A program made the translations under genes and the position numbers. Shown here piece by piece: positions 13,548 to 27,889 of a stretch of DNA of 64,000 bases. This DNA is from Rhodoblastus acidophilus (GTDB lineage: Bacteria > Pseudomonadota > Alphaproteobacteria > Rhizobiales > Beijerinckiaceae). Below the pieces are notes generated by a model. That model searched no databases and was not told the DNA's origin. It worked only from the letters and a program-made list of their open reading frames with translations. Within the stretch, counting starts at the first letter, position 1; each line of letters begins with the position of its first letter. The stretch covers positions 1 to 64,000 of the forward strand of contig NZ_FYDG01000001.1 of assembly GCF_900187365.1 (NCBI RefSeq), in the 5' to 3' direction.

Positions 13548-13614
13548 ATTGCTGTCCAATTCCTCTCGCCAACGGACTCTTGCGGGGCGGCGGCGGCGGC
13601 GCTACAGCCGCGCG

Positions 13615-14220
13615 ATGACCATCGACCCGCTCTATCTCGTCCTCGAAAATTCGGCCTGGGTCGAACGCATGCTCGCCTGCGGCGTCAAGCTGATCCAGTT
13701 GCGCGTCAAGGGCGCGGAGGACGAAGCTCTGCGCGCCGAAATTGTCCGCGCAAAAAACCTTTGCGCGCGGGCTGGGGCGCGATTCGTGGTCAACGACCAT
13801 TGGCGCCTCGCCCTCGAGCTCGGCTGCGCCCATGTCCATCTTGGCCAGGACGATCTGGCGGGCGCCGATCTCGCCGCGCTCCGCGCCGCCGGCCTCAGCC
13901 TGGGCGTCTCGACCGAAACCGAGGACGATCTCGACCGCGCGCTGGCGCTCGGCGCCGACTGGATCGCGCTGCAGCCGATCTTCGCCACCGCCTCGAAAGC
14001 GTTTGAGCGGGCGCCGCAGGGGCTGGCCCGGTTGCGCCAGTGGCGCGAACGGCTGAACGGACGGCCGCTGATCGCCATTGGCGGAATCAAGCTCGGGAAC
14101 GCGAACGCCGTCTTCGCCGCCGGCGCCGATTGCGTGGCGCTGATCAGCGATGTGACCCGCGCGCCCGATCCCGAGCGTCGCGCCCGCGACTGGCTGGCCG
14201 CCACCCGCAGGCGCCTCTAA
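13615..14220 (+). CDS. thiE: Thiamine phosphate synthase
   Basis: A 201-residue TIM-barrel enzyme joining hydroxymethylpyrimidine diphosphate and thiazole phosphate to make thiamine phosphate. Visible motifs include KLIQLRVKGAEDEALRAE near the N-terminus, FVVNDHWRLALELGCAHVHLGQDDL in the middle, and LIAIGGIKLGNANAVFAAGADCVALISD near the C-terminus, all typical of ThiE. The start MTIDPLY is chosen because upstream in-frame sequence overlaps thiM and is not conserved-looking. It is divergent from thiM; its partner substrate is supplied by that kinase. A strong hairpin terminator follows about 65 bp after the stop. Confidence 0.93.
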   Translation: MTIDPLYLVLENSAWVERMLACGVKLIQLRVKGAEDEALRAEIVRAKNLCARAGARFVVNDHWRLALELGCAHVHLGQDDLAGADLAALRAAGLSLGVSTETEDDLDRALALGADWIALQPIFATASKAFERAPQGLARLRQWRERLNGRPLIAIGGIKLGNANAVFAAGADCVALISDVTRAPDPERRARDWLAATRRRL

Positions 14221-14266
14221 AGCGTTTTAAGCGAAGCTGAAGCACGGCTCACGCGAAAAACGCTTT
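14219..14266. repeat. Extragenic inverted repeat AAAGCGTTTT / AAAACGCTTT
   Basis: AAAGCGTTTT at 14219-14228 pairs perfectly with AAAACGCTTT at 14257-14266 across a 28-bp spacer. It begins inside the thiE stop codon. Between the arms lies AAGCTGAAGCACGG (14234-14247), which recurs with one change at 27449-27462. It may be an extragenic palindromic element or part of the thiE terminator. Confidence 0.45.
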
Positions 14267-14284
14267 GAAACAATAGTCTAGCGC

Positions 14285-14314
14285 CCCTTCGGCGAACTGA
14301 GGTTCGCCGAAGGG
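14285..14314. terminator. Bidirectional hairpin between thiE and rnfB
   Basis: CCCTTCGGCGAAC (14285-14297) and GTTCGCCGAAGGG (14302-14314) form a perfect 13-bp stem with a TGAG loop. It lies between the convergent thiE stop and the last gene of the nifJ-rnf operon. There is no clear U-tract on either side, so termination efficiency is uncertain. Confidence 0.7.
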
Positions 14315-14322
14315 ACGCTCAA

Positions 14323-15222
14323 TCACACCCCGGCGTCGGCGCGCACGGGCAGATCGTCCTTGCGCAGGATTTTCTTGGCCGCGGCGCCGCGCTCCGGCCG
14401 GCCCTGGTCGTCGAACCAAACGATGGCGCCGGTGGCGCAGCGGTCGATCACTTCGCGGCGCCCCTCGCTGATGCGGCCGATGTCGATCTCCGCGAGATTG
14501 TTGCGCACGGTGATCAGGCCCGGCGCGGCGTCGGCCACGCATTTGCCGCAGGCGGTGCAGGCCACTTCGCAGGCGGCTTCGGCGAGATCCGCCTCCGCCC
14601 GGCTCTTGCAGGCCACGAACAGCTTGTCCTTGACCAACTGCAGCGAGAACAGCCCCTTGGGACAAGCGACCACGCAATCGTTGCACGCGGTGCATTTCTC
14701 CTGATCGACCACCGGCAGGCCGTGCTCGTTGAGCGTGATGGCGCCTTGCAGGCAGACCGAGGCGCAATCGCCGAGCCCCAGACAGCCCCAGCCGCATTCC
14801 TTGCCGCCGCCGCTGACCACAGCCGCGCCGCGACAGGTTGAAAGCCCGACATATTTCGCGCGCAAAAACGCGACATGACGGCCGCCGGCGCAGGCGAGCC
14901 GCGCCACGCGCTTGTCCACAGCGCCGGCCTCGACGCCAAGATAACCGGCGATGGCGGCGATCTGCGCCGGGCTGCTCACGGTGCATTTGGCGGCGACCAC
15001 TTCGCCCGCCACCAGCTTTTCCGCGAAATCGTGGCAACCGGCGAGACCGCAGGCGCCGCAATTGCTCTTGGGCAGCAGCCCGTCCACTTCCTCGATGCGC
15101 GGGTCCTCGTAAACGAACAGGCTTCTGTTCGCCACGGCCAGCATCAGCGCGAGCAAGCCGCCGAGGCCCGCCATGAAGGCGCCGGCCATGCCGACGACTT
15201 CCCACTGCCCAAACTGCTCCAC
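14323..15222 (-). CDS. rnfB: Electron transport complex subunit RnfB (long, multi-cluster form)
   Basis: A 299-residue iron-sulfur subunit that takes electrons from reduced ferredoxin into the Rnf complex. An N-terminal membrane anchor (about 10-32) precedes SNCGACGLAGCHDF with a distant Cys (the 4Fe-4S domain unique to RnfB/RsxB). A Cys-rich block follows (ECGWGCLGLGDCASVC), then CTACNDCVVACPKG and ACTACGKC. This is longer and holds more cluster motifs than the roughly 190-residue proteobacterial RsxB and resembles acetogen-type RnfB. The GTG start is supported by GAGGGGG upstream. It is the last gene of the operon, 17 bp after apbE. Confidence 0.92.
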   Translation of the reverse strand: MEQFGQWEVVGMAGAFMAGLGGLLALMLAVANRSLFVYEDPRIEEVDGLLPKSNCGACGLAGCHDFAEKLVAGEVVAAKCTVSSPAQIAAIAGYLGVEAGAVDKRVARLACAGGRHVAFLRAKYVGLSTCRGAAVVSGGGKECGWGCLGLGDCASVCLQGAITLNEHGLPVVDQEKCTACNDCVVACPKGLFSLQLVKDKLFVACKSRAEADLAEAACEVACTACGKCVADAAPGLITVRNNLAEIDIGRISEGRREVIDRCATGAIVWFDDQGRPERGAAAKKILRKDDLPVRADAGV

Positions 15223-15239
15223 GATCCGTCCCCCTCAGC

Positions 15240-16250
15240 TTAGGCTGTCAGCGCGGGCAGGCCCGGCGTGCGGAAAGTCTGCCCGTTCTTGCCGATCAGC
15301 AGCGCGTCGACGCCCGGCAGCGTCGCGGCCAGCGCCAACGCGCGTTCCGCGCCCAAAACCATGAAGGCCGTGGACAGGCCGTCCGCTTGCAGCGCGGTCG
15401 GCGCCAGCACCGACGCGCTCGACAGCTCCAGCGGCGAATGGCCGGTGGCCGGATCGAAAATGTGGTGGTTGACGAAATCGGGCGTGAAATAGGTTTCGTA
15501 GTCGCCGGAGGTCGCCAGGGCGCGGCCGTCCATGGCCAGCCGCATCACGATCTGCTCGGATTCGCGCGGATGCTGCACGCCGAGCACCCAGGGCTTGTCC
15601 TGCTGCTTGCGGCCGAGCGTGTCGAATTCGCCGGCGTCGATCAGCGCGTGTTCGATTCCATGGCGGCGCACGGCGGCCAGCGCGCGGTCGGCGGCGTAGC
15701 CCTGCGCCACGCCGTTGAGCGTGATCGCCATGCCGGGACGCCGCAACCGCGCGGCTTCCTCGGACAGGTCGAGATCGCGCCAGCCCACCAGCGCGCCGGC
15801 CGTGCGCACAGTGTCGGCGGACGGCAGCCCGCCCTGCGCCTTGGCCTGGGTATAGGCGTCCCACAGCGGCTGCACCGTCACGTCGAACGCGCCATGCGTG
15901 CGGTCCGCCAGGTCCTGCGAATAGCGCAGCACTTCCAGCAGCCGAGCGTCGGGGCGCGCCAGTTCGCCGGCGCGGTTGAGCGCCACCACTTGGCTGTCGT
16001 CGCGATAGAGGCTCATCACCTTGTCGACGCCCTGCACTTCCGCCAGCGCGTCGGACAGCGCGGCCTGCGCTGCGCCCTCGTCATTATGCAACACCAGCAG
16101 CGAAACCTTCGTGCCGAGCGCGCGGCCCGACAGCGTGAACGGCTTCAACTCGCGGGCGTGAGCGACCGAGGCCACCGCGCCGAACCCGGCCAGGGCGGCG
16201 ACCGAGCCGAGGCCCAGCGAGGACCAGATCATCTTGCGGCGATTCATCAT
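15240..16250 (-). CDS. apbE: FAD:protein FMN transferase
   Basis: A 336-residue exported flavin transferase that attaches FMN covalently, through a phosphoester, to a threonine in RnfG and RnfD. The N-terminus (MMNRRKMIWSSLGLGSVAALAGFG...) is a signal peptide or anchor. Family motifs include TLNGVAQGYAADRAL, ALIDAGEFDTLG, HIFDPATGHSP and ADGLSTAFMVLG; the last carries the Mg2+-binding aspartate. Two ATGs are adjacent at 16250 and 16247, with GAGGAT upstream. Its place in the rnf operon matches its substrates: the operon encodes RnfG and RnfD with SGxT acceptor motifs. Confidence 0.93.
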   Translation of the reverse strand: MMNRRKMIWSSLGLGSVAALAGFGAVASVAHARELKPFTLSGRALGTKVSLLVLHNDEGAAQAALSDALAEVQGVDKVMSLYRDDSQVVALNRAGELARPDARLLEVLRYSQDLADRTHGAFDVTVQPLWDAYTQAKAQGGLPSADTVRTAGALVGWRDLDLSEEAARLRRPGMAITLNGVAQGYAADRALAAVRRHGIEHALIDAGEFDTLGRKQQDKPWVLGVQHPRESEQIVMRLAMDGRALATSGDYETYFTPDFVNHHIFDPATGHSPLELSSASVLAPTALQADGLSTAFMVLGAERALALAATLPGVDALLIGKNGQTFRTPGLPALTA

Positions 16251-16270
16251 CGAACTATCCTCATCTCAGC

Positions 16271-17113
16271 TCAGTAAAGCACGTCGCGCCATTGGCCGGC
16301 GGCTTGAAGTTTGGCGCGGCAGGCTTCCCAGGTCTCGGCCGAGCCGACCACCCGCGCCATCGCCTTGTCGAGCATGGGCAGCATCGCCTCGGGACCGGCG
16401 ATGAAAACATGGGTGCGCTTGTCCTGCAACATGTCCCAGACCTCGCCGGCATGGGCGAGCAGCGCCTCGTCCAGCGCCGGCGGCTCGTCGAAATGCGGGC
16501 GCGGGCTCACCGCCTCGAACGCCTTGAACGTCGGCTGGTCGTAATACAGGCCGAGGTCGCCGTTCTCCTGGTTCTGGTAAAGCATCTCCAGGCCGCTGCG
16601 CGCGCCGTGGAACAGCCGCACCGGGCCTTTCCAGCCGCCCAACTCGTCGTAGATGCGGCGCACCAGCCCACGGAACGGCGCGATGCCCGTGCCCATGCCG
16701 ATCATCAGCAGGCCGGCTTCGCGGTCGGCGGGAATGGCGAAGGGGTGGCCGAGCGGGCCGACGAATTCGATCTGCCCGCCGACCGGCAGGTCGCACAGAT
16801 AGTTCGAGGCGACGCCGTCATAGCGCTCGCCGTTGAAATCGTCGATCACATGGCAACGCCGCACCAGCAACTCAACCGCGAGCCGGCCGCCGGCCGGCTC
16901 CAGGTCGGCGATGGAATAGAGCCGCTCGTGAAAACGCTGGCCGAACTGGCCGGGGGCGCGCACGCGCAGGCACTGGCCGATCTGGCCGGAGAAACCGCCA
17001 TCCGCCGAAAAGCGCAGACGGCGCACGTCTTCGGGGGAATTCGCCGGGGTGATGCGGGTGTTGGCGACGAGGGTCGCCGTCCAGAGCCGGTCGGTCGCTT
17101 CTGACAGGGACAT
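16271..17113 (-). CDS. Plant-type ferredoxin-NADP+ reductase
   Basis: A 280-residue flavoprotein transferring electrons between ferredoxin and NADP(H). The FAD-binding part shows RLYSIA (the RxYS motif). The nucleotide-binding part has GMGTGIAPFRGLVRRIY, and the protein ends in an aromatic tyrosine (WRDVLY), as plant-type FNRs do to stack on the flavin. THVFIAGPEAM is the late NADP-binding block. There is no fused ferredoxin. It lies inside the nifJ-rnf operon between the small Cys protein (8 bp) and apbE (20 bp). This suggests that ferredoxin reduced by the first gene product can feed NADP+ as well as Rnf. Direction in vivo is inferred. Confidence 0.85.
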   Translation of the reverse strand: MSLSEATDRLWTATLVANTRITPANSPEDVRRLRFSADGGFSGQIGQCLRVRAPGQFGQRFHERLYSIADLEPAGGRLAVELLVRRCHVIDDFNGERYDGVASNYLCDLPVGGQIEFVGPLGHPFAIPADREAGLLMIGMGTGIAPFRGLVRRIYDELGGWKGPVRLFHGARSGLEMLYQNQENGDLGLYYDQPTFKAFEAVSPRPHFDEPPALDEALLAHAGEVWDMLQDKRTHVFIAGPEAMLPMLDKAMARVVGSAETWEACRAKLQAAGQWRDVLY

Positions 17114-17121
17114 GACGCTTC

Positions 17122-17457
17122 TCAGTGAGAAAGAATTTCAGGCGCCGCCGCCGGCAGAACGCCGGGCTTGCAAGCAGTGTTGGTGCAGGCGGCGCAGCCT
17201 TCGGCCGGTTTCGCGGCGGCTTTGGCCTCCCCGCATTTGGCTTCGGCGGCTTTGGCTTCAGCGAATTTCGCCTCGGCCGATTTCGGCGCCAGCGGCGAAG
17301 GCGCGTGGCCATGACCGCCGCAGCCGCCGCCAACCAGACGCAAGGGGCCAGCTTCCGGATGCTGCTCGGCCACATGCCGCGCCATGCGCTGCACTTCGAT
17401 CCAGGCCATCATCAAGCCGAGCAGCAGGATGAAGGCGGCGATCAGGGAGACGATCAT
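17122..17457 (-). CDS. Small membrane-anchored Cys/His protein in the rnf operon
   Basis: A 111-residue protein with one N-terminal membrane helix (about 1-24). It continues with a GGGCGGHGH cluster, a low-complexity Ala/Glu/Lys segment made of repeated AEAK-type units, and a C-terminal CAACTNTACKPG motif. It overlaps rnfA by 4 bases and precedes the reductase gene by 8 bp. The layout (one helix, then a CGG motif, then closely spaced cysteines) recalls NqrM, which helps insert iron between the two six-helix subunits of Na+-NQR, close relatives of RnfA and RnfE. I do not recognise it as a named family. The maturation role is an inference. Confidence 0.6.
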   Translation of the reverse strand: MIVSLIAAFILLLGLMMAWIEVQRMARHVAEQHPEAGPLRLVGGGCGGHGHAPSPLAPKSAEAKFAEAKAAEAKCGEAKAAAKPAEGCAACTNTACKPGVLPAAAPEILSH

Positions 17458-18041
17458 GCCCCGCCCCCCAATCCCGCGAAGCCCATGAAGGCCAATGATA
17501 GAACGCCCGCCAGCATCAGCACGAGCACCGTGCCCTGCACCGATTCCGGCACGTCGGCGAGTTCGACGCGCTCACGCACGCTCGCCAGCAGCACCAGAGC
17601 CAAAGTGAAGCCGACGCCGCCGCCAATCGCAAAGGTGATCGACTGCATGAAGTCATAATCGCGCGCGGTCTGGAACAGGGCGACGCCGAGCACGGCGCAA
17701 TTGGTGGTGATCAGCGGAAGATAGATGCCCAACGCCCGAAACAGCGGCGGGTAATTCTTCTTCACATACATTTCAACCAGTTGCACCGCCGAGGCGATCA
17801 CCACGATGTAGCAGATCAGCCGCAGGAACTCCAAATGCGCGAGTCCCAGCACCCAGTTCAGCAGATAGGCGCTGAGCGAGGCGATCACGATGACGAAAGT
17901 GGTGGCGAGGCCGAGGGGGAACGCCACGGAGACGCTGTGGGTGACGCCGAGGAACGGACACATGCCCAGAAACATCGCCAGCACGAAATTGCCGGAGAGG
18001 ATTGTGGTGAGCAGGATCTGCCAGAGAGATTCACGCGCCAT
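17454..18041 (-). CDS. rnfA: Electron transport complex subunit RnfA
   Basis: A 195-residue, six-helix integral membrane subunit. Conserved half-helix motifs GNFVLAMFLGMCPFLGV and LITTNCAVLGVAL each carry the cysteine that ligates the iron or 2Fe-2S centre shared with RnfE. The ATG at 18041 opens MARESLWQILLTT and is preferred over a longer start that would overlap rnfE further; it overlaps the rnfE stop by 11 bases. The gene is part of the continuous rnfCDGEA run. Confidence 0.93.
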   Translation of the reverse strand: MARESLWQILLTTILSGNFVLAMFLGMCPFLGVTHSVSVAFPLGLATTFVIVIASLSAYLLNWVLGLAHLEFLRLICYIVVIASAVQLVEMYVKKNYPPLFRALGIYLPLITTNCAVLGVALFQTARDYDFMQSITFAIGGGVGFTLALVLLASVRERVELADVPESVQGTVLVLMLAGVLSLAFMGFAGLGGGA

Positions 18042-18720
18042 GACAGGCTCCCGAAGTTTCAGCGGCGGCCCGGGCGCGCTCATTCTCCTGCGCGCGCATC
18101 TGGGCGCGACGGCGCACGATGGAGAACAGCAACAGCCAGCCGGCCATCACGAAGAATCCGCCCGGCGGCAGCACCATCACCACCCAGGGCTGGAAGTTCG
18201 GCCCGAACAGCGAGAAGCCGAAGAAGGCCCCGGCGCCGAGAATTTCGCGCACGCCGCCGATCATCACCAGGCTCAGCGTGAAGCCGAGGCCCATGCCGAT
18301 GGCGTTCATCGTCGCCGCCAGCGGCGGATTGCGCGCCGCATGGGCTTCGGCGCGGCCGAGCACCAGGCAGTTGGCCACGATCAGCTGGATGTAGGCGCCG
18401 AGCGCTTCATAGAGGTCGAGGCTGATCGCCTGGATCGCATAGTCGGTGACGGTCACGAAGGTGGCGATGATCACGATATAGGTGGCGATGCGCACCTCTT
18501 TCGGGATCAGTTTGCGCAAGGCCGAGACCAGAAAGCACGAGGCCGCGAGCACGAAAGTGGTGGCGACGCCCATCGACAGCGAATTGACCGCCGAGACCGT
18601 GACGGCCAGCGTCGGGCACATGCCCAGCACCATCACGAACACCGGGTTGCGCTTCCACAGCCCTTCCGTGAACTCCTCCCAGGTGCTGGGCGGAGCCAAC
18701 AGGGGAGACGACTCGCTCAT
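18031..18720 (-). CDS. rnfE: Electron transport complex subunit RnfE
   Basis: A 229-residue membrane subunit homologous to RnfA with inverted topology. It contains FVMVLGMCPTLAVTVSAVN and IVANCLVLGRAEAHA, the paired cysteine motifs of the metal centre between RnfA and RnfE. The GRAEAHA continuation is typical for RnfE/NqrD and distinguishes it from RnfA. The ATG overlaps the rnfG stop by 4 bases. The C-terminal tail is charged and short. Confidence 0.93.
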   Translation of the reverse strand: MSESSPLLAPPSTWEEFTEGLWKRNPVFVMVLGMCPTLAVTVSAVNSLSMGVATTFVLAASCFLVSALRKLIPKEVRIATYIVIIATFVTVTDYAIQAISLDLYEALGAYIQLIVANCLVLGRAEAHAARNPPLAATMNAIGMGLGFTLSLVMIGGVREILGAGAFFGFSLFGPNFQPWVVMVLPPGGFFVMAGWLLLFSIVRRRAQMRAQENERARAAAETSGACHGA

Positions 18721-19418
18721 TGCTTCTCCAATCGGTCGATTTTGGGAACGAGGCGCGGCAGCAGGATTTGCGCCGCGTCGTTGATGCCCTTGCCCACGGC
18801 GCGCGAGGTGACGGTCGAGCCGGAAATGGCGTCGATCTGCCAGCCTTGAGCCTTCGTGCCGTGCTTGACCACCTTGACCTCGTTGGCGAGGCCGGCCAGA
18901 TCCTCGGTCAGCTTGACGTCCAGCGCCTTGAAATTGGCCAGGAAGTCCTTGTCGGTGATGATCTTGTCGCCGATGCCGGGCGTCTCGCGCATGGAGACGA
19001 CGCCAAAGCCGACGATGCACTGGCAGGCCTTGCGATAGCCGAACATCACGCGCACCGTGTCGGCGTAGCCCTTGGCGGCGCCTTCCGCCGCCACGCCGTC
19101 GAGATGGCCGTTGGCGTCGTAGGCGGCGTAGAACCGAACGGCGCCGGTCGGCGGATCGCCCTCTCCGGCCGGAACCACGTCGCCATTGGCCAGCGCCAGC
19201 CAGGGTTTGACGGACTTGGCGTCCGGCAGCACCTTGATCACCGCGCGTTCGGAGGCGAGCCGGCGGTTGTCCTTGGCGCGGTCGAGCGTCAGCAGATAGC
19301 TGCCGACGATGATCAGGCCGCAGATGGCGGAAACGACGCTCAGGGCGCGCAGCAGGGTGAAGGTCGGCGTCGCATGGGCCGCTGCATCAACCTGCGGGGT
19401 GTTGTCCGACGCGCTCAC
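18717..19418 (-). CDS. rnfG: Electron transport complex subunit RnfG (FMN-binding)
   Basis: A 233-residue subunit with one N-terminal membrane helix (about 24-46) and a periplasmic FMN-binding domain. The motif ISGSTVTSRAVG contains the SGxTxT threonine that receives FMN from ApbE. ETPGIGDKI is a second family landmark. The start is GTG, in a GTGA overlap with the rnfD stop, and is supported by AAGGAG nine bases upstream. An insertion around YRKACQCIVGF contains two cysteines, which is not typical in the RnfG proteins I know. Confidence 0.9.
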   Translation of the reverse strand: MSASDNTPQVDAAAHATPTFTLLRALSVVSAICGLIIVGSYLLTLDRAKDNRRLASERAVIKVLPDAKSVKPWLALANGDVVPAGEGDPPTGAVRFYAAYDANGHLDGVAAEGAAKGYADTVRVMFGYRKACQCIVGFGVVSMRETPGIGDKIITDKDFLANFKALDVKLTEDLAGLANEVKVVKHGTKAQGWQIDAISGSTVTSRAVGKGINDAAQILLPRLVPKIDRLEKQ

Positions 19419-20458
19419 GCTCTCGTCTCCTTGGTCGGTTCCGTGCCGAACGCTTTCGGCTGGGTGATCCGTTCGATCATCGGCGTCGCGGCGTTGCCGA
19501 TCAGGATGGCGTACATGACGCCCTCCGGCAGCCCGCCGGAATAGCGGATGATCACCGTCAGCGCGCCGATCAGCGCGCCATAGAGCCACATGCCGAGCGG
19601 CGTCACCGGCGAGGTCACCATGTCGGTCGCCATATAGACCGCGCCCAGCATCAGGCCGCCCGAGAACAGCACGAAGCCGGGATCGGGGAAGTGCTGCGGG
19701 TTGAGCGGATAGAGCGCAGCGGCGAGCAGCGCGGCGCTGCCGAGCACGGCGACGGGAATGCGCCAGTCGAGATAGCCGCGATAGGCAAGGTACAGGCCGC
19801 AAGCGAGGATCAGCAGCGGCGACGGGCCGACCGGCAGATGACCCGACAGCGACGTCAGCAGGTCCCAGTTGCTGGCGATCACGCCCTCGAACTTCCACCG
19901 CGCCAGCGGCGTTGCGCCGCTCACGCCGTCGATGTTCAAACCGGCCACCCAGGAGGCGGTGTCGGCCGGCGTCATGAACGGCAGCGCCAGGCTCGACGGA
20001 ATGAAGTCGGTGAAGCGGTCGGGCAGGAACGAGGGGGTGTAGGTGGCGATGGCGGTCGGGAACGCCGCCTGCGCGAAGCCGCGTCCCACCAACGCCGGAT
20101 TGAACAGATTATGGCCGATGCCGCCGAAAATGGCCTTGCCCAGACCGATGGCGACGAAGCCGGCCATCGCGCCCATCCACAGCGGAAAGCCCGGCGGCAG
20201 GGTCAGCGCGAGCAGAAGCCCGGTGATGGTCGCCGACCAGTCGCCGAGATCGCCCGACTGCCGGCCGAGACGCAGGAAGAACTCTTCCGCCGCGAGACAG
20301 GCGCAGGTGACGACCACCAGCGAGGCCAAAGCGGACACGCCATATTGCCAGACATAGAAGCCGCAAATGGGCAGAAGCGACCACACGACATTGCGCATGA
20401 TCTTGACCACGCCAGCGTCGTCCTTGATGTGTGGCGCGGAACGAATTTCAACGGTCAT
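19415..20458 (-). CDS. rnfD: Electron transport complex subunit RnfD (FMN-binding)
   Basis: A 347-residue polytopic membrane subunit with about nine to ten helices. The motif DGVSGATPLARWK carries the threonine for covalent FMN attachment. GGIGHNLFNPALVGRGF and FSGGLMLGAVYMATDMVTSP are strongly conserved RnfD/NqrB blocks. The start overlaps the rnfC stop (ATGA). Together with RnfG, RnfA and RnfE it forms the membrane ion-pumping part of the complex. Whether H+ or Na+ is moved cannot be read from the sequence by eye. Confidence 0.93.
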   Translation of the reverse strand: MTVEIRSAPHIKDDAGVVKIMRNVVWSLLPICGFYVWQYGVSALASLVVVTCACLAAEEFFLRLGRQSGDLGDWSATITGLLLALTLPPGFPLWMGAMAGFVAIGLGKAIFGGIGHNLFNPALVGRGFAQAAFPTAIATYTPSFLPDRFTDFIPSSLALPFMTPADTASWVAGLNIDGVSGATPLARWKFEGVIASNWDLLTSLSGHLPVGPSPLLILACGLYLAYRGYLDWRIPVAVLGSAALLAAALYPLNPQHFPDPGFVLFSGGLMLGAVYMATDMVTSPVTPLGMWLYGALIGALTVIIRYSGGLPEGVMYAILIGNAATPMIERITQPKAFGTEPTKETRA

Positions 20459-21804
20459 GCCGCCTTCTCCGGCTTGCCGCGCAGCACCTGTTTGGCCACG
20501 CGGAACTGCTGCACCAGCGGAATGTTCGCCGGGCAGACGTAAGAGCAGGTGCCGCATTCGAAGCAGGCGCCCAGGCGATAAGTGTCCGCCATCGTGTCAT
20601 ACTGGCGCTTGGCCGCGAGCATGCCGAGGGTGGAGGGATTGAGGCCCATCGGGCAACTCTCGATGCACTTGCCGCACTTGATGCACGGGAAGCTCTTTTT
20701 CGCCGACGGCGCCGCGAGCTCGCGGGCGCGGAAGACGAGAATGCCCGAGACGCCCTTGGTGATCGGGGCGTCGAGGCAGGCCACCGCCTGCCCCATCATC
20801 GGCCCGCCATAGATCACCTCGATGGCCTCCTGCGGCGCGCCGACGTAATCGAGCAGGAAGCGCAGCGGCGTTCCCATCGGGACCAGATAATTGCCGGGCC
20901 GCTCGACGGCGGTGCCGGCGACCGTGATGACGCGCTCGATAAAGCCGCGTCCGCGCGGGGCCAGCGCGCCCATATAGGCGAGCGTGGCCACGTTCTGCAC
21001 ATAGGCGCCGACCGAATAGGAGCGCGCGTCCGGCGGCACCTCGCGGTTGAGCAGCGTCTTGATCAGCATTTCGCCCGCGCCCTGCGGATATTTGGTCGGC
21101 ACGGCCTCGACCGTGACCTCGCCGCTGGCGGGCAGCGCGGCGCGCAGCGCCTCGACGGCGTCGGGCTTGTTGTCCTCGACGCCGATAATGGCGCGGGGAT
21201 TGCCGAGCAGCCGCCGCGACATTTCAATGCCGATCATGATGTCGCGGGCGCGCTCGACCATGATGCGATGGTCGCTGGTGAGGTAGGGCTCGCATTCGCA
21301 GCCGTTGACCACCAGCGTGTCGACCGGGAATTCCTTCGGCACTTTGAGCTTGGCGTGGGTCGGGAACACGCCGCCGCCCAAACCGACGATGCCGGTGCGC
21401 TGCACCGCCGCGATCACGCCGGAATCGTCGAGAGCCGCGAGATCTTGCGGCTCCTCCCATTCCACCGCCTGGGTGGAGCCGGCGTGCGCCTTGATGACGA
21501 CCGATTCGGTCCAGACGCCGGTGGAGGTCGGGTTGAGGCGGATCGCCTCAACCGTTCCGCTGACCGGCGCATGGTGCGGCACCGACACGAAGCCGTCGGC
21601 CTCCGCCAGCGGCTGGCCGCGCACCACGTCCTGGCCGACCTTGACGAGCGGCTTGGCCGGGCGCCCGACATTTTGCGACAGCGGCACGATCAGGCGCGGC
21701 GCGAACGGCAATCGCGTAATCGGCTGATGCGCCGTGCCCTTGTGCTCAGGCGGATGAATGCCGCGGGCGAACGCCTCGCCGCGAAGAAAGGTGAAAAGTT
21801 TCAT
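20455..21804 (-). CDS. rnfC: Electron transport complex subunit RnfC
   Basis: A 449-residue peripheral subunit that binds FMN and NADH/NAD+ and links RnfB to the NAD pool. The N-terminal barrel-like region includes GIHPPEHKG. The flavin/NADH region has GIVGLGGGVFPTHAKL and VNGCECEPYLTSDHR. Two 4Fe-4S motifs, CIKCGKCIESCP and CFECGTCSYVCP, lie near the C-terminus (about residues 370-425). Its length matches the short anaerobe-type RnfC, without the long repeat tail of E. coli RsxC. It starts 7 bp after the nifJ stop. Confidence 0.94.
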   Translation of the reverse strand: MKLFTFLRGEAFARGIHPPEHKGTAHQPITRLPFAPRLIVPLSQNVGRPAKPLVKVGQDVVRGQPLAEADGFVSVPHHAPVSGTVEAIRLNPTSTGVWTESVVIKAHAGSTQAVEWEEPQDLAALDDSGVIAAVQRTGIVGLGGGVFPTHAKLKVPKEFPVDTLVVNGCECEPYLTSDHRIMVERARDIMIGIEMSRRLLGNPRAIIGVEDNKPDAVEALRAALPASGEVTVEAVPTKYPQGAGEMLIKTLLNREVPPDARSYSVGAYVQNVATLAYMGALAPRGRGFIERVITVAGTAVERPGNYLVPMGTPLRFLLDYVGAPQEAIEVIYGGPMMGQAVACLDAPITKGVSGILVFRARELAAPSAKKSFPCIKCGKCIESCPMGLNPSTLGMLAAKRQYDTMADTYRLGACFECGTCSYVCPANIPLVQQFRVAKQVLRGKPEKAA

Positions 21805-21811
21805 CGCGCCC

Positions 21812-24800
21812 TCAATTGTACTTCTTCGCGCGGTTGATCAGCTTGTCCAGCTTGGGCTCCTGCTCCCAGGGCATACCGGGATGCAGACACTCGGCCGGGC
21901 ACTTTTCCGCGCTCTTCACAATGTCGCTGAACTTGTTCCCCTTGGGGTCCTTCACGGTGACCTGCTTGGAGGCGTTGTAGACGAACACGCCCGGCGCCTG
22001 ATCGATGCACTCGCCGCAGGCGGTGCAATCGGGCGAATCCACCCAGACCGGCTCATAGTCCGGCAGGGGAATTTCGACGCTGGAGGCGGCGGCCTTCGCC
22101 TTGGCGGCCGGCTTGGCCGGAGCGGCGGGCTTCGCCGCCTCGACCGGCTTGGCCGCCTCGGCAGGCTTCGCCACCTCGACGGGCTTGGGCGCTTCAATGG
22201 GCTTGGGCGCTTCGACGGGCTTGGCGGCCTCGACGGGCTTGACCGGTTCCGCGGCGGCGGGCGCCGTCACCGGAGCGGCGGCGAGCGTCGCGGCCAGTCC
22301 GGCCAGCGTCGAGGGAATCGGCGCCGGAGCCGCAGGCGCGGCGGCGACGGGAGCCGGAGCAGGCGTCGCGGGGACCGGAGCCGGCGCCACAGGCGCAGCG
22401 GCCTTGGCTTCGGCGACGGCGGCGGCGACCGCTTCGGCCTGAGCGGCGGCGAAGCTGGCTTCCAGCTCCTCGCGCACCTCCTCGCGAACTTGCGCCTCGA
22501 TCGCGGCGGCGTCGACCGGCTGGGCGACGACGTCCTTGAGCTGACGCCAGAACTGCATCCGCTCCTCGCAGGAATTCACCAATTCCTGCGACACGATCAG
22601 CCGCATCAAACGGCCCTTGGCGTCGGTCGCCCAGATATACGGGAAGCGGCCGTTGCGCTCGTCGGCGGGCAGATCCAGCAACTCGGCCAGCGGCAGCATG
22701 GCGTCGTTCCAGGTCTCCGGCGGCGCCTTGCGGAAGTTCTTGGAGAAGCGCGCTTCCGTCGCCGCGAAATCGGCGAAGGTCACCGGCAGGTCGAGCGTGG
22801 CCTTCGCGCCCTTCTCGTCGACATATTGCAAGGAATAGGTCGGCCAGTCCTGATCCAGCGCCGGGTTGCCTTCCAGGCTGGCGCAGGCGGAGAATTCCAC
22901 GCCGGCGTCCGGATCGTAGCGGAACAGCGGATAGGCGCGGCTTTCCACCGCAAGCTTGCTCTGGGACACCGTGCGGTCGTCGCCGACGCCATGTTCGGGC
23001 GGGCACACCGCATAGATGTTGAACAGGGCCGGCCGGCGCGAGTTCAAACCGTCGATATAGCCTTCCAGCAGGTGCGACACATGGGCGACCGTGGACTGCA
23101 GCACGAAGCTGCTGCGGTGCGCCATGCCGATCAGGCTGATTTCCTTGCGGATTTCGCTCTTGCCGTGACGCGCCGCGCCATAGGGCGCCATATCCGACAC
23201 CTGGGCGATGAAGCCCGAGGTGCAGGCCTGGCCGCCGGTATTGGAATAGACTTGCGTGTCCACCACCAGCACCTTGATCGGCTTGCCGGCCATCATCATG
23301 CGCGACAGGTTCTGGAAGCCGATGTCATACATGGCGCCGTCGCCGCCGAGGCTGACCACCGGCGGGCACAAGGCCCATTCGTCGTCGGAGAACTGCTCGT
23401 AGGTGAAGCGGTTGAAGAAGGCGCGGTCGCGCTCCTCGACGAAATCGCCCTTCAGCTCCATCTCGGCCATGCGGACGATCTTGAAGCCCTCGGCCATCTT
23501 GGCCATGTGGCCTTCGAACAGGCCCATCGCGACCGACGGCGAGTCCTGGAACAGATGCGAGGTCCAGGGGAACGGATAGGGATGGTACGGATAGGTGCTG
23601 CCCCACACGGACGTGCAGCCGGTGGAGTTGACCATGCCCATATTGGCGCGGCCGCGACGGGTCGGGCCTTCGACATAGCGCCAGCGCAGATCCTTCAACG
23701 CTTCCAGCAATTGCGCGCAACGCTTGACCCAGTTCGGATCGAGCGGCTGCGACGGCTTGCCGTCATTGAGCTTGGAGGCCAGCGACGACAGGGTGAGATC
23801 GTGCGGGGCCGAGGAATCCACCGCGCGGGCGACCGCGCTCGCGTCCGACAGATCCACCGCCTTGGCGAGGCTCAGCCGCACATGCTGCTCCAGCTTCTGG
23901 ATCAGGCCGTCGAGTTTGCCGATAAAGGCTTTGACGCGCGGCTGCATCAGCGCGGAAACCGTGCTGGTGAACAGGTGGATCGCGGTCTTCTCGCCGCAGC
24001 CAAGGCAGGCGCCGTCGCCGCAGGTCATGGCGTTGTAATTGGTCTTGTCGAGCAGCAGCGTGTCGAGCGCGCCGATCTTCTCATCAAGATCCTCGATGCG
24101 GCTGTATTCCTTGCCGGTGGTCGGCAGGTCGAGCCAAAAACTCCAGTCGCGGCGCAGCGCGGCGACGCTGTCGTCGGTCTGCGTCACCATTTTCAGCGCA
24201 TTGTCGTCGCAGACGTCCACGCACAGAGCGCAGGCCTTGCAGGTCAGCGGATTGACCGTGATGGAGAACAGGCCGCCGCCGCCGCCCTTCTTTTCCTTCG
24301 AACTCCAGTACGGCTTGGTCGCGGAGAAGGCGAAGGTTCCGATCTCGGCCTTGAGCAGGTCGAATTCGGCGGCGAGCGCGGCGCGCTCGGCTTCCGGCGC
24401 CTCGGCGACCGTGGCTTCAAAAGCCTTGTCGATCAATGGACGCACGGCGACGCCGTCATTGGGGCCGACCAAACCGCGCAGCTTCTTCTCGGCGCCGCGC
24501 AGGGCGCGCCGCAGCAATTTGGTGGGCGTGCCCGCGCGCTCGACGCGCGCCAGCGCGGCGTTGAACACTTCGCTGACCGAATTGACCAGGCCGGGAATCG
24601 CGCTGTCGGGGCAGACCGTGTAGCACTTGCCGCAGGCCGTGCAGTTTTCGGCGACCCATTCCGGATGCTCGAAGCGGATGCCGGTCATGTCGCGGAACAT
24701 GCCGGACGCCGCCGGGATCAGCGAGGCGCCGATGAACGGATCGAGCAGATTGTCGTTGCCCTTGCCGGTGGCGTAGAAATGGCCGGTCTGCTCCCAGAAG

Positions 24801-27043
24801 CGATGCAGGTCGGCGACAGGCGACAGGCTCTTGTCGCTGGAGGGGCAGCCCTTGAGCATGATCGGCAGGCTGGTCTTGGCGATGACCGGCGCCGACTCGC
24901 CCACCACCTTTTCCTTGATCTCGAAGATCTCGGTGTAACCGCGCTTCACCACGGTCAGGTTGTTCTGAACGACCCGCGCGCCCTTGGAGCCGAACTTGGA
25001 CTCAAGCTGCTTCTCGATGGCGGTGAACAGCGTCTGCTCGCTCAGGCCGGCGTTCTGGCGCACCGACGACGCCGCGAAGAACGCGCCCTGGAAGGCGTTG
25101 CCCTGCATGCGCAATTGCAGCTCGGCGCTGCCGGCCTCCTCGCGGGCGATCTTGAACGCGTCGAGATAGAAGACGCGCAGCTCCTTGTCGACGATCTCCT
25201 GCTGCGCCCAGCGCGGGAAAGCGGCCCAGGTCCCCTCGCCCAGATTGCTCTGGATGATGAACACGCCGCCCTTCTTCAGGCCGGACAGCGGGTTGGAATG
25301 GCCGAACACCGCCGGATCGGGCGACAGAACCACGTCCACATAAACATATTCGCAGTTGACGCGAATCGGCTCCGGCGCCGCCGACAGATAATAAGTCGTC
25401 GGCTGGCCCTTCTTTTCCGAGCCATATTTCGGATTGGCCTTGATCTCCCAGCCGAGCAGCTCGAACAGGGTCATCGCCAGATTCTTGCCGGTGGTGATCG
25501 CGCCCCAGCCGCCGATCGAATGCATGCGGACGGTGATCGCGTCCTTGGGCATCAGATTGGGGTTTTCGCTGCCGCGCACCACCATTTTGGCGGCGTTCGG
25601 ATAGGCGGACTGGAACGCCTGCTGATGCAGCTCATCCTTGGGATGATCCGGCTCGCGCGCCACATCCACCGACAGATAGAAGAACTTCCGCTTGTCGCCG
25701 TCGGGCAGCATGTTCTCGATCGCGCCGATCAGCCCTTCCGGCTGCAGGTCGCGCGAGCCCAGCCCGTAGCAGCCGGAATAGAGACGCGGCATGTCGCTCG
25801 GCGACAGCGAGGGATAACCCGGATGCGGCGGCTCGCCGGCATAGGCGGCCTCCATGGCGTTTTCCAGCGCCTTCTGCAGCGCCGAGCGCACTTCGCGCAT
25901 CAACGGCAGATCTTCGGCCAGCGGCTGGTCGGTGCGCTCCAGCACCGCCACGCCCTTCTTGCCCCGCAGCGCGGCGGCGACGAGATCGCCAGGGAAGGGA
26001 CGGAACATGGTGAGATTGACCACGCCGACGCGCAGCCGGCGGGTGGCGCGCAGATAATCGGCCACGGCCTCGGCCTGCACCACCATGCTGCCCATGCCGA
26101 AAATCACATAGTCGGCGTCATCGCAGCGGTAGCAGCTCAGGCGGGAATATTTGCGCCCGGTCAGCTCGGCGAATTCGTCCATACAGCGGTCGGCGAGCGG
26201 CTGCACCTCATTGAAGAAATACGGGCGCTGCGCGGCCACCGCCTGCATATACGCGTCCTGATTCTGCACCGAACCGGAGGCCATGGGAACGTCCACGTCC
26301 CAGATCGAAGGCACGCGGCGGCGCTTCGGGCCGTAGAGCATTTTCTGCGCCGGGGTCGGCGTCTCGATCATGTCGTCGGGCTTGCCCAAAAATTCCGCGA
26401 CGAGTTCGCGCTCGGGCAGCGTGACCGATTCGATCAGATGGGTGGTGAGAAAGCCGTCCTGGCCGACGATGGCCGGGGTCAGCGACAATTCCGCCAGCCT
26501 GCGGACGATCAGGTTGAGATCGGCCGCTTCGGTGGCGCTCTTGGCCATCACCTGAATGAAGCCGGTGTCGTCGATGCAATGGTAGTCGTCATGGCCGGCA
26601 TGGACGTTGAGGCTGGCCTTGGTGATGGCGCGGCAGCCCATGTTCAGCACGTAGGGCAGACGCTTGCCGACCGTGGCGTAAAGGCTCTCGTGCATGAAGG
26701 CGATGCCCTGCCCCGACGAGAAATTGGTGGCGCGCAAGCCGGTCATGGCCATGCCGGCGGTCACCGCGGCGGCGGCGTGCTCGGATTCCGGCTCGACGAA
26801 GATCAGCGGACGGTCGCTGACATTAAGATGCCCGCGCGCGGCTTCTTCGGCCCAGTATTCGCCCATCTGGGTGGAGGGGGTGATCGGATAGGCGCCGGCG
26901 GCGTCGGAGGCCTCGCGCTCGACATGGATAATGGCGGTGTTGCCGTCAACGGCGTCACGAACGCCCGGGTACTTCACCGAAGGCTGCTCCGGGGCGCGGG
27001 CGGCGGCGCCCGTCAGTGTCTCCATAATCTTCTTCAGCATCAT
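21812..27043 (-). CDS. nifJ: Pyruvate:ferredoxin oxidoreductase with fused C-terminal ferredoxin domain
   Basis: A 1743-residue homodimeric-type PFOR, which oxidises pyruvate to acetyl-CoA and CO2 and reduces ferredoxin; usual length is about 1170-1230. Residues from about 30 hold the pyruvate domain (ASDAAGAYPITPSTQM); the gamma domain has MHSIGGWGAITTGKNLA. Ferredoxin-like cluster motifs are CTACGKC (801-807) and CKACALCVDVC (934-944), far more widely spaced than normal. The TPP domain includes GDGACLGCGEKT and GDGAMYDIG (about 1235). An Ala/Pro/Lys linker (about 1530-1655, repeats like KPVEA) leads to an extra 4Fe-4S domain with Cys 1673, 1676, 1679 and 1715. The ATG at 27043 follows GAGGACAGG. 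It is the first gene of the rnf operon. Confidence 0.93.
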   Translation of the reverse strand: MMLKKIMETLTGAAARAPEQPSVKYPGVRDAVDGNTAIIHVEREASDAAGAYPITPSTQMGEYWAEEAARGHLNVSDRPLIFVEPESEHAAAAVTAGMAMTGLRATNFSSGQGIAFMHESLYATVGKRLPYVLNMGCRAITKASLNVHAGHDDYHCIDDTGFIQVMAKSATEAADLNLIVRRLAELSLTPAIVGQDGFLTTHLIESVTLPERELVAEFLGKPDDMIETPTPAQKMLYGPKRRRVPSIWDVDVPMASGSVQNQDAYMQAVAAQRPYFFNEVQPLADRCMDEFAELTGRKYSRLSCYRCDDADYVIFGMGSMVVQAEAVADYLRATRRLRVGVVNLTMFRPFPGDLVAAALRGKKGVAVLERTDQPLAEDLPLMREVRSALQKALENAMEAAYAGEPPHPGYPSLSPSDMPRLYSGCYGLGSRDLQPEGLIGAIENMLPDGDKRKFFYLSVDVAREPDHPKDELHQQAFQSAYPNAAKMVVRGSENPNLMPKDAITVRMHSIGGWGAITTGKNLAMTLFELLGWEIKANPKYGSEKKGQPTTYYLSAAPEPIRVNCEYVYVDVVLSPDPAVFGHSNPLSGLKKGGVFIIQSNLGEGTWAAFPRWAQQEIVDKELRVFYLDAFKIAREEAGSAELQLRMQGNAFQGAFFAASSVRQNAGLSEQTLFTAIEKQLESKFGSKGARVVQNNLTVVKRGYTEIFEIKEKVVGESAPVIAKTSLPIMLKGCPSSDKSLSPVADLHRFWEQTGHFYATGKGNDNLLDPFIGASLIPAASGMFRDMTGIRFEHPEWVAENCTACGKCYTVCPDSAIPGLVNSVSEVFNAALARVERAGTPTKLLRRALRGAEKKLRGLVGPNDGVAVRPLIDKAFEATVAEAPEAERAALAAEFDLLKAEIGTFAFSATKPYWSSKEKKGGGGGLFSITVNPLTCKACALCVDVCDDNALKMVTQTDDSVAALRRDWSFWLDLPTTGKEYSRIEDLDEKIGALDTLLLDKTNYNAMTCGDGACLGCGEKTAIHLFTSTVSALMQPRVKAFIGKLDGLIQKLEQHVRLSLAKAVDLSDASAVARAVDSSAPHDLTLSSLASKLNDGKPSQPLDPNWVKRCAQLLEALKDLRWRYVEGPTRRGRANMGMVNSTGCTSVWGSTYPYHPYPFPWTSHLFQDSPSVAMGLFEGHMAKMAEGFKIVRMAEMELKGDFVEERDRAFFNRFTYEQFSDDEWALCPPVVSLGGDGAMYDIGFQNLSRMMMAGKPIKVLVVDTQVYSNTGGQACTSGFIAQVSDMAPYGAARHGKSEIRKEISLIGMAHRSSFVLQSTVAHVSHLLEGYIDGLNSRRPALFNIYAVCPPEHGVGDDRTVSQSKLAVESRAYPLFRYDPDAGVEFSACASLEGNPALDQDWPTYSLQYVDEKGAKATLDLPVTFADFAATEARFSKNFRKAPPETWNDAMLPLAELLDLPADERNGRFPYIWATDAKGRLMRLIVSQELVNSCEERMQFWRQLKDVVAQPVDAAAIEAQVREEVREELEASFAAAQAEAVAAAVAEAKAAAPVAPAPVPATPAPAPVAAAPAAPAPIPSTLAGLAATLAAAPVTAPAAAEPVKPVEAAKPVEAPKPIEAPKPVEVAKPAEAAKPVEAAKPAAPAKPAAKAKAAASSVEIPLPDYEPVWVDSPDCTACGECIDQAPGVFVYNASKQVTVKDPKGNKFSDIVKSAEKCPAECLHPGMPWEQEPKLDKLINRAKKYN

Positions 27044-27643
27044 CCTGTCCTCGACGCGCACGCCACGCGCAGTTGATTTTTTACTATGCAGAGTTTGATC
27101 AAATTCATCTGCGACATATGGGCGCACGACTTAAGACGTACACGACCCATTCCCCCCGATTAAGCCGATAACCGAGGGGTGAAGCGCGTTACAAAGTTGA
27201 CGCATTCCAAGCCGCCGCACCATGACGAAGATCAATTTGCTGATTAACTTTGGCGCGCCAGCCCGCCGCCGACCGAACGCGCTCCGCTTGATTCGAGGAC
27301 AAGCGCCGGCCGATCCTTCCGCCGCGCGGTTCACTTCGTTCTCGGCTTCGAGGCGCTCTCCGCAATGCTACAGAGACGCGCCGCAAAAGCTGAAGCAAAA
27401 CAATAATGCGCAAGAAAGCGCGCAGATCGCGCCCCTCCGCCAAAGGCAAAGCTAAAGCACGGATAAGCCTGATGAATGGCCAATATCTAGCAACACAGCT
27501 TGGTCTGCGCCATTGTTACGAGGCATCGCCCTGCGTACTCGGTAGCACTACGTAAAAACATCTTGCCGCACATTTCATTTTAGCCGCTCCCGGTGTATGG
27601 TGGCGACGTTCACAAATTCGTTACGCCCGCCAGGAGCTCAAGA
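27044..27643. other. 600-bp intergenic region upstream of nifJ
   Basis: No convincing gene on either strand; short frames here lack ribosome sites and recognisable content. It must hold the promoter of the minus-strand nifJ-rnf operon and probably that of the plus-strand small gene at 27644. It contains a 16-bp near-palindrome (27091-27106), a weak FNR-type 14-mer TTGACGCATTCCAA (27197-27210), and a copy of the AAGCTxAAGCACGG motif (27449-27462). I found no clear sigma-54 or NifA site. Confidence 0.5.
27091..27106. promoter_or_regulatory. Near-palindrome upstream of nifJ
   Basis: GAGTTTGATCAAATTC is a 16-bp palindrome with one mismatched pair, centred 56 bp upstream of the nifJ ATG. It is AT-rich relative to its surroundings and located where an operator would be expected. 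It contains TTGAT and ATCAA half-sites, but these overlap instead of being spaced by four bases as in a normal FNR/FixK box. Confidence 0.4.
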
Positions 27644-27889
27644 ATGTCCACGAATGTCGTCAGACTGAACGGCGAGCATTTTCCCGGCCCCGAGCCTGTC
27701 GAGGACGTGATCGAAACGCTCACCCGGTGGCTTGAGAACGCCAAGGCGGGCCGTTTGCGCCAGGCGGCGCTCGTCGGCGTCGAGGCGGACGGAACCACGG
27801 TGCTCGCCTGGTCTGGCGGCCATCGCGATCTCGTCGGCTCGCTCGACTACGCCAAGCATTGCCTGCTGCGCGACTGGGACAGCGCCTGA
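27644..27889 (+). CDS. Small hypothetical protein, 81 aa
   Basis: I do not recognise this gene. The 81-residue product starts MSTNVVRLNGEHFPGPEPVEDVIETLTRWLENAKAG and ends with AKHCLLRDWDSA. It looks soluble and globular, with an N-terminal helix and a strand-rich middle (AALVGVEADGTTVLAWSGG). AGGAG sits 8 bases before the chosen ATG, which is better than the upstream in-frame start. Codon use matches its neighbours. It is convergent with nnrS (22 bp apart). Similar short proteins near phage-like or regulatory loci exist, but no function can be assigned. Confidence 0.7.
   Translation: MSTNVVRLNGEHFPGPEPVEDVIETLTRWLENAKAGRLRQAALVGVEADGTTVLAWSGGHRDLVGSLDYAKHCLLRDWDSA

Follow-up and report, generated by a model that had tools for sequence, protein, structure and literature searches.

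Published gene orders of the Rnf complex are rnfABCDGE in most proteobacteria, rnfBCDGEA in Chlorobi and Bacteroidetes, and an order with rnfB last in Firmicutes (PMC4014512, in part). For the gill symbiont of Solemya velum, a gene for pyruvate:ferredoxin oxidoreductase (PFOR) was noted in 2014 between rnfB2 and rnfC2 of the rnf2 cluster (rnfBCDGEA; locus L049 of our survey), and pyruvate was already proposed as a possible electron donor to Rnf; the available parts of that paper make no mention of a fused ferredoxin, a small protein or a ferredoxin-NAD(P) reductase (FNR) (PMC4287430). Excerpts of other papers report three rnf clusters of "entirely unclear" role in Allochromatium vinosum (PMC3368242), treat PFOR and Rnf in separate sections for Gallionellaceae (PMC10734482) and, for Rhodoferax antarcticus, describe nifJ as missing from the nif cluster and indicate another predicted pyruvate flavodoxin oxidoreductase-type gene (PMC5374385). 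Here we describe a ten-gene operon at 14323-27043, minus strand, of a 64,000-nucleotide stretch of Rhodoblastus acidophilus DNA (assembly GCF_900187365.1, contig NZ_FYDG01000001.1, positions 1 to 64,000; hereafter the window). The operon belongs to the same nifJ-linked Rnf family as the symbiont cluster, from which it differs in having rnfB and apbE at its 3' end, and it seems to be a laterally acquired, betaproteobacterial-type PFOR-Rnf module that did not come from acetogens. This family is widespread and little described: no account of the fused ferredoxin, of a small cysteine gene or of the family as such was found in the literature searched (mostly without subscription papers), whereas PFOR between rnfB and rnfC was already known from the symbiont (PMC4287430).

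A row of ten tightly packed minus-strand genes had been proposed by an earlier, sequence-only reading, and its order (nifJ-rnfC-D-G-E-A-small-FNR-apbE-rnfB), coordinates and packing all hold. Calculated from stop and start positions, neighbouring genes are 7 (nifJ/rnfC), 8 (small/FNR), 20 (FNR/apbE) or 17 bp (apbE/rnfB) apart, or overlap by 4 bp (C/D, D/G, G/E and A/small) or 11 bp (E/A), and transcription as a single unit is predicted. The starts chosen were 27043 (nifJ), 21804 (rnfC), 20458 (rnfD), 19418 (rnfG, GTG), 18720 (rnfE), 18041 (rnfA), 17457 (small gene), 17113 (FNR), 16250 (apbE) and 15222 (rnfB, GTG). Pfam and NCBIfam searches identify RnfC, D, G, E, A and B, ApbE, FNR and PFOR, and the features are as follows.

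27036-27145, minus strand: conserved leader directly upstream of nifJ (94, 87 and 86% identity in three operon-bearing congeners)
21812-27043, minus strand: nifJ, divergent long PFOR, 1743 aa (Pfam POR_N, PFOR_II, POR, TPP_enzyme_C, Fer4_13)
22028-22546, minus strand: NifJ linker with 59 Ala and 30 Pro; between the PFOR core and the first cysteine of the ferredoxin lie 173 residues
21881-22042, minus strand: NifJ C-terminal single-cluster ferredoxin domain (Fer4_13; PDB chain 1dax_A, E 3e-6)
20455-21804, minus strand: rnfC (TIGR01945, 472.4 bits, cut-off 245.95; two CxxCxxC motifs)
19415-20458, minus strand: rnfD (TIGR01946, 272.4 bits, cut-off 207.05; SGAT motif)
18717-19418, minus strand: rnfG (FMN_bind PF04205; TIGR01947, 80.9 bits, below the cut-off of 102; SGST motif)
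18031-18720, minus strand: rnfE (TIGR01948, 222.7 bits, cut-off 213.4; MCP and NC cysteines)
17454-18041, minus strand: rnfA (PF02508; TIGR01943, 227.2 bits, just below the cut-off of 229.3; MCP and NC cysteines)
17122-17457, minus strand: small protein, 111 aa, N-terminal hydrophobic helix and conserved cysteines (no family match)
16271-17113, minus strand: plant-type ferredoxin-NAD(P) reductase, 280 aa (Pfam FAD_binding_6, NAD_binding_1; PDB 1fnb_A, E 5e-28)
15240-16250, minus strand: apbE, FAD:protein FMN transferase (PF02424, 235 bits)
14323-15222, minus strand: rnfB, long type, 20 conserved cysteines (Pfam match; TIGR01944, 64.3 bits, below the cut-off of 68.7; nearest PDB chain 9eri_B)

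The first gene was read as nifJ, which is right for the PFOR superfamily and wrong for canonical NifJ. Its product has the POR_N, PFOR_II, POR and thiamine pyrophosphate (TPP) domains and the cluster cysteines shared with canonical enzymes (TIGR02176; PDB 6cin, 7plm, 1b0p), but scores 395.7 bits against a TIGR02176 cut-off of 911.35, and differs from them in a core of ~1500 residues (1167 model positions in the canonical family), a C-terminal fused ferredoxin and an identity of 25-27%. Twelve core cysteines, eight in two CxxCxxCxxxC motifs and four around the TPP domain, are conserved in 23/23 aligned rows and in 29/29 rows of a second alignment; we take them, by their roles in canonical PFOR, to bind three [4Fe-4S] clusters. 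Four further cysteines lie in the C-terminal domain and are invariant in the 29 rows, which were chosen for full-length matches, while the 23-row alignment was picked by the ferredoxin pattern and conserves these four by construction. The nearest PDB chain to this domain is ferredoxin I, 1dax_A (presumably from Desulfovibrio africanus). As a side observation, one congener has another PFOR-like frame, 1526 aa long (G006:C40:20682-24728).

The fused ferredoxin is a family trait. Among the listed loci, 52 have a frame extending to the EER..FW motif that closes the PFOR core, and 46 of these carry the ferredoxin (pattern CxxCxxC, 28-55 residues, C...HP; a stricter pattern gave 23/52), a count from which 34 further loci without this anchor were left out. 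The frames of the other six (L037, L039, L049, L062, L094 and L097) appear to end early or shift; in the symbiont locus L049 (NifJ region 10001-14888), the frame stops before the ferredoxin and a ferredoxin match lies just downstream, through an assembly error or a frameshift. In the 46 loci, the linker before the ferredoxin spans 64-173 residues (median 79), the Ala/Pro-rich linker of the window being the longest, followed in its genus by congeners L016 (151) and L018 (107). An AlphaFold2 model of NifJ residues 761-1743, built from 29 aligned sequences, has a mean predicted local distance difference test (pLDDT) score of 68; its linker begins with a helix, and residues 789-912 (~124) are almost all below 50. 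Such a low-confidence stretch between folded parts fits a flexible tether.

The conservation search that the sequence-only reading had called for shows how widespread this arrangement is. Among the best 20 of 43 plasmid records from a translated search, the closest PFOR relatives are in Persicobacter (59%) and Gemmatirosa (51%), where rnf genes adjoin PFOR in both, and the next matches are canonical NifJ-like at 25-27% identity. A scan of a species-genome collection listed at least 80 nifJ-type loci, many of them in metagenome bins and mostly from beta- and gammaproteobacteria; minor labels are Acidobacteria, Bacteroidota, Myxococcota, Hydrogenedentota, Verrucomicrobia, the PVC group and alphaproteobacteria. 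rnfB is directly upstream of nifJ in 71/80 listed loci, downstream in one, split or elsewhere in one and not found in seven (four of which have <500 bp of DNA before nifJ), and rnfC follows nifJ in 63/80, one of the remainder having >1.5 kb of room. CDGEA is complete in 53 of the 80, and its order is kept in all 53. The usual order is thus rnfB-nifJ-rnfCDGEA-small gene-(FNR), and the window, with its long NifJ and C-terminal ferredoxin, CDGEA and small gene, has every family feature. The arrangement, the place of rnfB and apbE excepted, is more than chance because it recurs in named genomes of several phyla.

Rhodoferax has apbE-rnfB-nifJ-CDGEA-small-FNR (small gene matched in both L022 and L023) and Rubrivivax (R. 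benzoatilyticus, L089) rnfB-nifJ-CDGEA-small-FNR-apbE, so that rnfB precedes nifJ in both and apbE stands at one end, whereas the window and three congeners have nifJ-CDGEA-small-FNR-apbE-rnfB; rnfB is also downstream in the Bacteroidota relatives L002 and L100. The simplest account of the window is that rnfB was displaced from the 5' to the 3' end of the family operon. The sequence-only reading had called the order acetogen-like (CDGEAB). That stands for the rnf genes, with the small gene, FNR and apbE lying between A and B; since rnfB is upstream of nifJ in most relatives, the likeness looks secondary and would be a by-product of the displacement.

All six Rnf subunits (A, B, C, D, E and G) are encoded together and pass as Pfam matches, with RnfA, RnfG and RnfB (TIGR01944) below NCBIfam cut-offs. 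The RnfA/RnfE cysteines, SGAT in RnfD, SGST in RnfG and two CxxCxxC in RnfC are present, motifs that we take to mark the membrane [2Fe-2S] centre, sites of flavin mononucleotide (FMN) attachment and the RnfC clusters. Some of these meanings come from PMC12174285. Of 56 family RnfD rows, only 14 have exact SGAT, and of 52 RnfG rows, 30 have SG[AS]T. RnfB has 20 cysteines conserved in 72/72 family rows of at least 85% coverage, which by count would hold five [4Fe-4S] clusters. All 20 are also found in five reference rows from Clostridia and Bacteroidales, while 11 of them align in the rows of Escherichia coli and Shewanella and 10 in that of G035, and the Fusobacterium row is poorly aligned; the long, many-cluster RnfB that had been read as acetogen-like is therefore of the long type without being specific to clostridia, as the same 20 cysteines occur in Bacteroidales. 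Among solved RnfB chains, 9eri_B comes nearest (174 bits), then 7zc6_B (136) and, at a distance, 8ahx_B (29); we take these to be from Acetobacterium woodii, Clostridium tetanomorphum and Azotobacter vinelandii, respectively. The window Rnf is predicted to catalyse ferredoxin:NAD+ oxidoreduction with ion transport. Acetogen and clostridial complexes thus share the C-D-G-E-A order with B last and the long RnfB, but form a separate clade, and the annotated Monoglobus and Vescimonas operons lack nifJ, the small gene, FNR and apbE. The Rhodobacter-type RnfABCDGE and E. coli RsxABCDGE are homologous six-subunit pumps, again in a separate clade, with no linked PFOR in annotated loci and no small cysteine gene within 1.3 kb of rnfA.

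The small gene after rnfA is the second family trait. Its 111-aa product has no match in Pfam or NCBIfam, yet in 50 of the 52 nifJ-type loci that, among those listed, contain nifJ and all of CDGEA, the next frame after rnfA is a short open reading frame (ORF) encoding a single hydrophobic helix near the N terminus and three or more clustered cysteines; it was not found in Gemmatirosa (L003) or in L019, where little DNA is left. Within 1.3 kb after rnfA, no such ORF is present in 16 Rnf loci outside the family (Clostridia, Fusobacterium, Bacteroidales, RnfABCDGE type and others). Hits of an earlier scan served to tune the filter, and three loci of that scan (L009, L015 and L021) proved to be RnfB of other operons. 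Two cysteines are invariant across a 20-row alignment, and one more is almost so. NqrM (DUF539), the maturation protein of the Na+-translocating NADH:quinone oxidoreductase (Na+-NQR), is likewise short, with one N-terminal membrane helix and a cysteine cluster, and is encoded near apbE after membrane subunits, but homology was not supported: the 20 family members scanned have no PF04400 match, and hhalign against four proteins in the NqrM position (two annotated NqrM) gave a probability of 13.6% over 17 membrane-helix columns only. A PF04400 search of the genus also returned zero, a weak result as no control genome gave a match either. NqrM is therefore kept as an analogy and not as a membership; on the basis of its described role in Fe-S insertion (PMC12174285, in part), a likely task of the small protein is the insertion or protection of an Fe-S centre, for instance the RnfA/E [2Fe-2S].

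The FNR is of the plant type, with flavin adenine dinucleotide (FAD) and NAD(P) domains and a C-terminal Tyr that recurs in 20/34 family rows. Its nearest PDB chains are ferredoxin-NADP+ reductases, led by 1fnb_A (presumably the spinach enzyme), in which the stretch SREQ...KGEKMY, which binds the NADP 2'-phosphate, aligns with SPRPHFDEPPAL of the window. This stretch is not conserved in the alignment, and NADP+ as the partner of the FNR is therefore uncertain.

Together, these features point, with moderate confidence, to a reversible, ion-pumping pyruvate/NAD(H) module in which a tethered ferredoxin works between PFOR and RnfB. The fused ferredoxin would act as a swinging arm carrying electrons between the two, so that Rnf would link pyruvate + CoA = acetyl-CoA + CO2 to NAD+/NADH and to the translocation of ions. 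In the forward direction, pyruvate oxidation would yield ion export and NADH; through FNR, the same low-potential pool could exchange with pyridine nucleotide; ApbE would attach FMN to RnfD and RnfG; and the small protein would look after an Fe-S centre. Run backward, a light-driven gradient could return electrons to ferredoxin for pyruvate synthesis and, in a phototroph, as a secondary supply to nitrogenases beside FixABCX. The sequence-only idea of the operon as one device is plausible, and it is strengthened because the fused ferredoxin is conserved. Several points weigh on the other side. The electron route between the fused ferredoxin and RnfB is deduced from linkage and conservation, and the domain could serve soluble partners equally well. 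Pyruvate is assigned as substrate by homology, at 25-27% identity to canonical NifJ. The structural model comes from 29 sequences at modest confidence, the ferredoxin itself (last 70 residues) scoring about 50-70. FNR is found within 1.5 kb after rnfA in only 28/53 complete-CDGEA loci (in 4 of the 25 without it, the contig ends within 650 bp), and the control for the small gene covers 1.3 kb after rnfA only, so that it would overlook one placed farther away in these operons.

A stronger form of this reading can be put forward only tentatively: NifJ and Rnf may form one membrane-attached machine, an ion-pumping pyruvate:NAD+ oxidoreductase reversible to a gradient-driven pyruvate synthase, in which the ferredoxin shuttles between the PFOR clusters and RnfB and bypasses the soluble pool, and in which the small cysteine protein is a dedicated Fe-S maturation factor or an extra redox subunit that evolved independently of NqrM. 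That the module serves chiefly as a pyruvate synthase, with gradient-driven Rnf reducing ferredoxin and reversed PFOR carboxylating acetyl-CoA during acetate photoassimilation, we consider rather unlikely. Several named carriers (Marichromatium, Thiocapsa, Allochromatium and Rubrivivax) are phototrophs, and a fused ferredoxin would favour channelling in either direction, but the carriers Cecembia and Persicobacter, which we take to be heterotrophs, would have no light-driven need, and the genome has a separate set of PorA-, PorB- and PorG-like frames (contig C38). Reversal of both enzymes is established for their families (PMC8307300 and PMC12174285, in part), and Rhodospirillum rubrum is reported to use NifJ for acetate assimilation (PMC8307300, in part). 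A looser arrangement, in which PFOR, Rnf and FNR merely draw on a common ferredoxin pool and are co-transcribed for joint regulation, is likewise doubtful. Gene linkage alone is no proof of coupling, and the displacement of rnfB in Rhodoblastus and two Bacteroidota loci means that its adjacency to nifJ is not essential; however, the fused ferredoxin and the rnfB-nifJ-rnfC adjacency are conserved across several phyla.

The sequence-only reading had also proposed reverse operation to supply nitrogenase. The draft genome (98.5% complete) encodes NifD, VnfD/G and AnfD/G/K above NCBIfam cut-offs, together with BchX, and is therefore that of a phototroph with three nitrogenases, whose genes lie on contigs other than that of the operon.

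Contig C53 (L153), outside the window: Mo nitrogenase NifD, NCBIfam cut-off passed
Contig C38 (L154), outside the window: V nitrogenase VnfD/G, NCBIfam cut-offs passed
Contig C39 (L152), outside the window: Fe-only nitrogenase AnfD/G/K, NCBIfam cut-offs passed

For nif and vnf, the K frames were recognised by eye only. Ahead of vnf lies the gene of a NifA-like activator (490 bits, cut-off 528.85), with a similar-looking frame before anf, and two nitrogenase-like sets outside the window (L155:2522-4973 and L156:7994-11483) pair NifH-like with NifD/E-like frames far below cut-offs, one of them adjoining a radical SAM protein.

That the module mainly feeds the Mo, V and Fe nitrogenases, with a light-made gradient driving Rnf in reverse from NADH to ferredoxin and PFOR adding pyruvate electrons, is improbable. 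The operon's RnfC is the only one found in this three-nitrogenase genome, the operon-bearing genomes G000, G005 and G006 have four, four and three NifH matches over cut-off (G001, also operon-bearing, has one and contig-edge fragments) compared with one in each of seven operon-less congeners, and NifH and BchL/X-like matches also occur in two Rhodoferax and in Rubrivivax, the closest relatives by NifJ and RnfB. The operon-less G009 has BchL/X-like matches. However, having several nitrogenases and being phototrophic are confounded in this sample, and one of the four NifH of G000 (C54) adjoins a NifD-like protein far below cut-off and therefore may not be nitrogenase. FixC-type matches occur in 11/11 congeners (314-326 bits, below the cut-off of 610; of the Fix genes only FixC was searched), and upstream of nifJ in four species there is no strict sigma-54/NifA-site match and one loose match in one congener. 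Across the family, NifH over cut-off was found in only 19 of 50 operon-bearing named genomes (L063, L074 and other listed loci were left out) and is missing from 31, the RnfC relatives L025 and L091 included; nitrogenase is therefore not the family's general purpose, though it is a possible customer here. A dedicated nitrogenase role is thus weakened. In the genus, canonical NifJ passes the cut-off in two genomes that lack the operon, G009 and G002 (the latter with one in-frame TAG), and in no other.

The sequence-only claim of lateral acquisition agrees with both distribution and trees. A strong RnfC match is present in 4/11 Rhodoblastus genomes (that of the window included) and 0/14 sampled genomes from other genera of Beijerinckiaceae. 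Among 16 genomes of other families of the order, one (G038) combines the nifJ-linked form (a 54% relative) with a canonical Rnf encoded separately, and G035 has a canonical one; five further genomes gave weak partial RnfC matches only (E 1e-6 to 1e-3). A concatenated RnfC+D+E+A tree of 53 chosen rows, made by a quick method with Shimodaira-Hasegawa-like approximate likelihood ratio (SH-aLRT) support only, comprised 37 nifJ-linked rows, 7 RnfABCDGE-type rows and 9 others (Fusobacterium, four Clostridia with no named model acetogen, two Bacteroidales, and the alphaproteobacterial G042 and G087, whose Rnf groups with Bacteroidales). All 37 nifJ-linked rows form one clade (SH-aLRT 100) apart from the rest, and Rhodoblastus is nested in Rhodocyclales-labelled betaproteobacterial rows (support 99-100). 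Approximately unbiased (AU) tests rejected grouping the genus with other alphaproteobacterial nifJ-type rows (p-AU 3.6e-9; grouping named after the tree was seen), with the four clostridial rows (p-AU 5e-47) and with RnfABCDGE-type rows (p-AU 0.001), the last two groupings having come from the sequence-only reading; the Rnf thus does not go with Rhodobacter-type sequences. An acetogen or clostridial source is not supported, given the separate clade, the rejected grouping and the probable displacement of rnfB. For an alphaproteobacterial background, the support is one neighbour gene only, an ABC-F gene with its best plasmid-record match in Methylocella tundrae (82%).

Single genes point to several betaproteobacterial relatives. 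Rubrivivax/Rhodoferax are nearest for NifJ (FastTree 99-100), RnfB (99-100, two builds), FNR (92), ApbE (100, in a tree of only 9 rows) and RnfG (86), whereas RnfC groups with L025, L091 and L037 (100) and is 76% identical to L091 versus 58-59% to Rhodoferax and Rubrivivax; RnfE and RnfA group with L091, L042, L036 and L050 (93-99), and RnfD falls inside a group of 19 without a resolved position. Part of these were simple-model quick trees, and rows below 55% coverage, Fusobacterium among them, were left out for RnfB. Such mixed affinity suggests either that the donor operon was already patched or that gene replacement followed the transfer. A purely vertical history within alphaproteobacteria, with many losses and no recent transfer, is very improbable, since nifJ-type loci in other alphaproteobacteria (L019, from the same taxonomic order, and L075 and L092 by label) and an operon base composition that does not stand out are set against the rejection of a clade of all alphaproteobacterial nifJ-type rows, a group named after the tree was seen, and the patchy distribution.

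The 110-bp leader before nifJ (27036-27145) has one match per genome in three operon-bearing congeners (86-94% identity), and DNA further upstream looks less conserved by eye. A regulatory RNA in it is not supported: the window has no Rfam match at gathering thresholds, and the fold z-score of -0.96 is not better than shuffles. Sigma-70-like sites are no commoner than in shuffles. Divergent from nifJ, a 98-aa gene (27593-27889, plus strand) without an NCBIfam match is ~86-87% identical beside the operon in three congeners. NnrS is a neighbour in 11/11 congeners, and eight NnrS regions from seven operon-less genomes contain neither the 98-aa gene nor thiE and show no clean empty insertion site; thiE was also not found in the DNA examined beside the operon in G001 and G006. 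The segments 27912-31169 and 40756-42201 encode NnrS, a Crp-type regulator, a NapC/NirT cytochrome and a multicopper oxidase with a cytochrome c domain, which suggest a nitrogen-oxide reduction neighbourhood. Farther along, 44259-48458 (plus strand) encodes a 1399-aa protein with WbsX and family 1 and family 2 glycosyltransferase domains, and further polysaccharide genes come after it.

If the ferredoxin does wire PFOR to Rnf, many kinds of facultative bacteria, among them phototrophs and oxidisers of sulfur or iron, would possess a stand-in for pyruvate dehydrogenase that conserves energy, or else a pyruvate synthase driven by an ion gradient; standard annotation would at present be splitting it into unrelated enzymes. 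The small cysteine protein is a concrete candidate for how the Rnf of the nifJ-linked clade may acquire its intramembrane Fe-S centre. As the sole Rnf found in a species with three nitrogenases, the complex in Rhodoblastus may bear on how alternative nitrogenases are fed.

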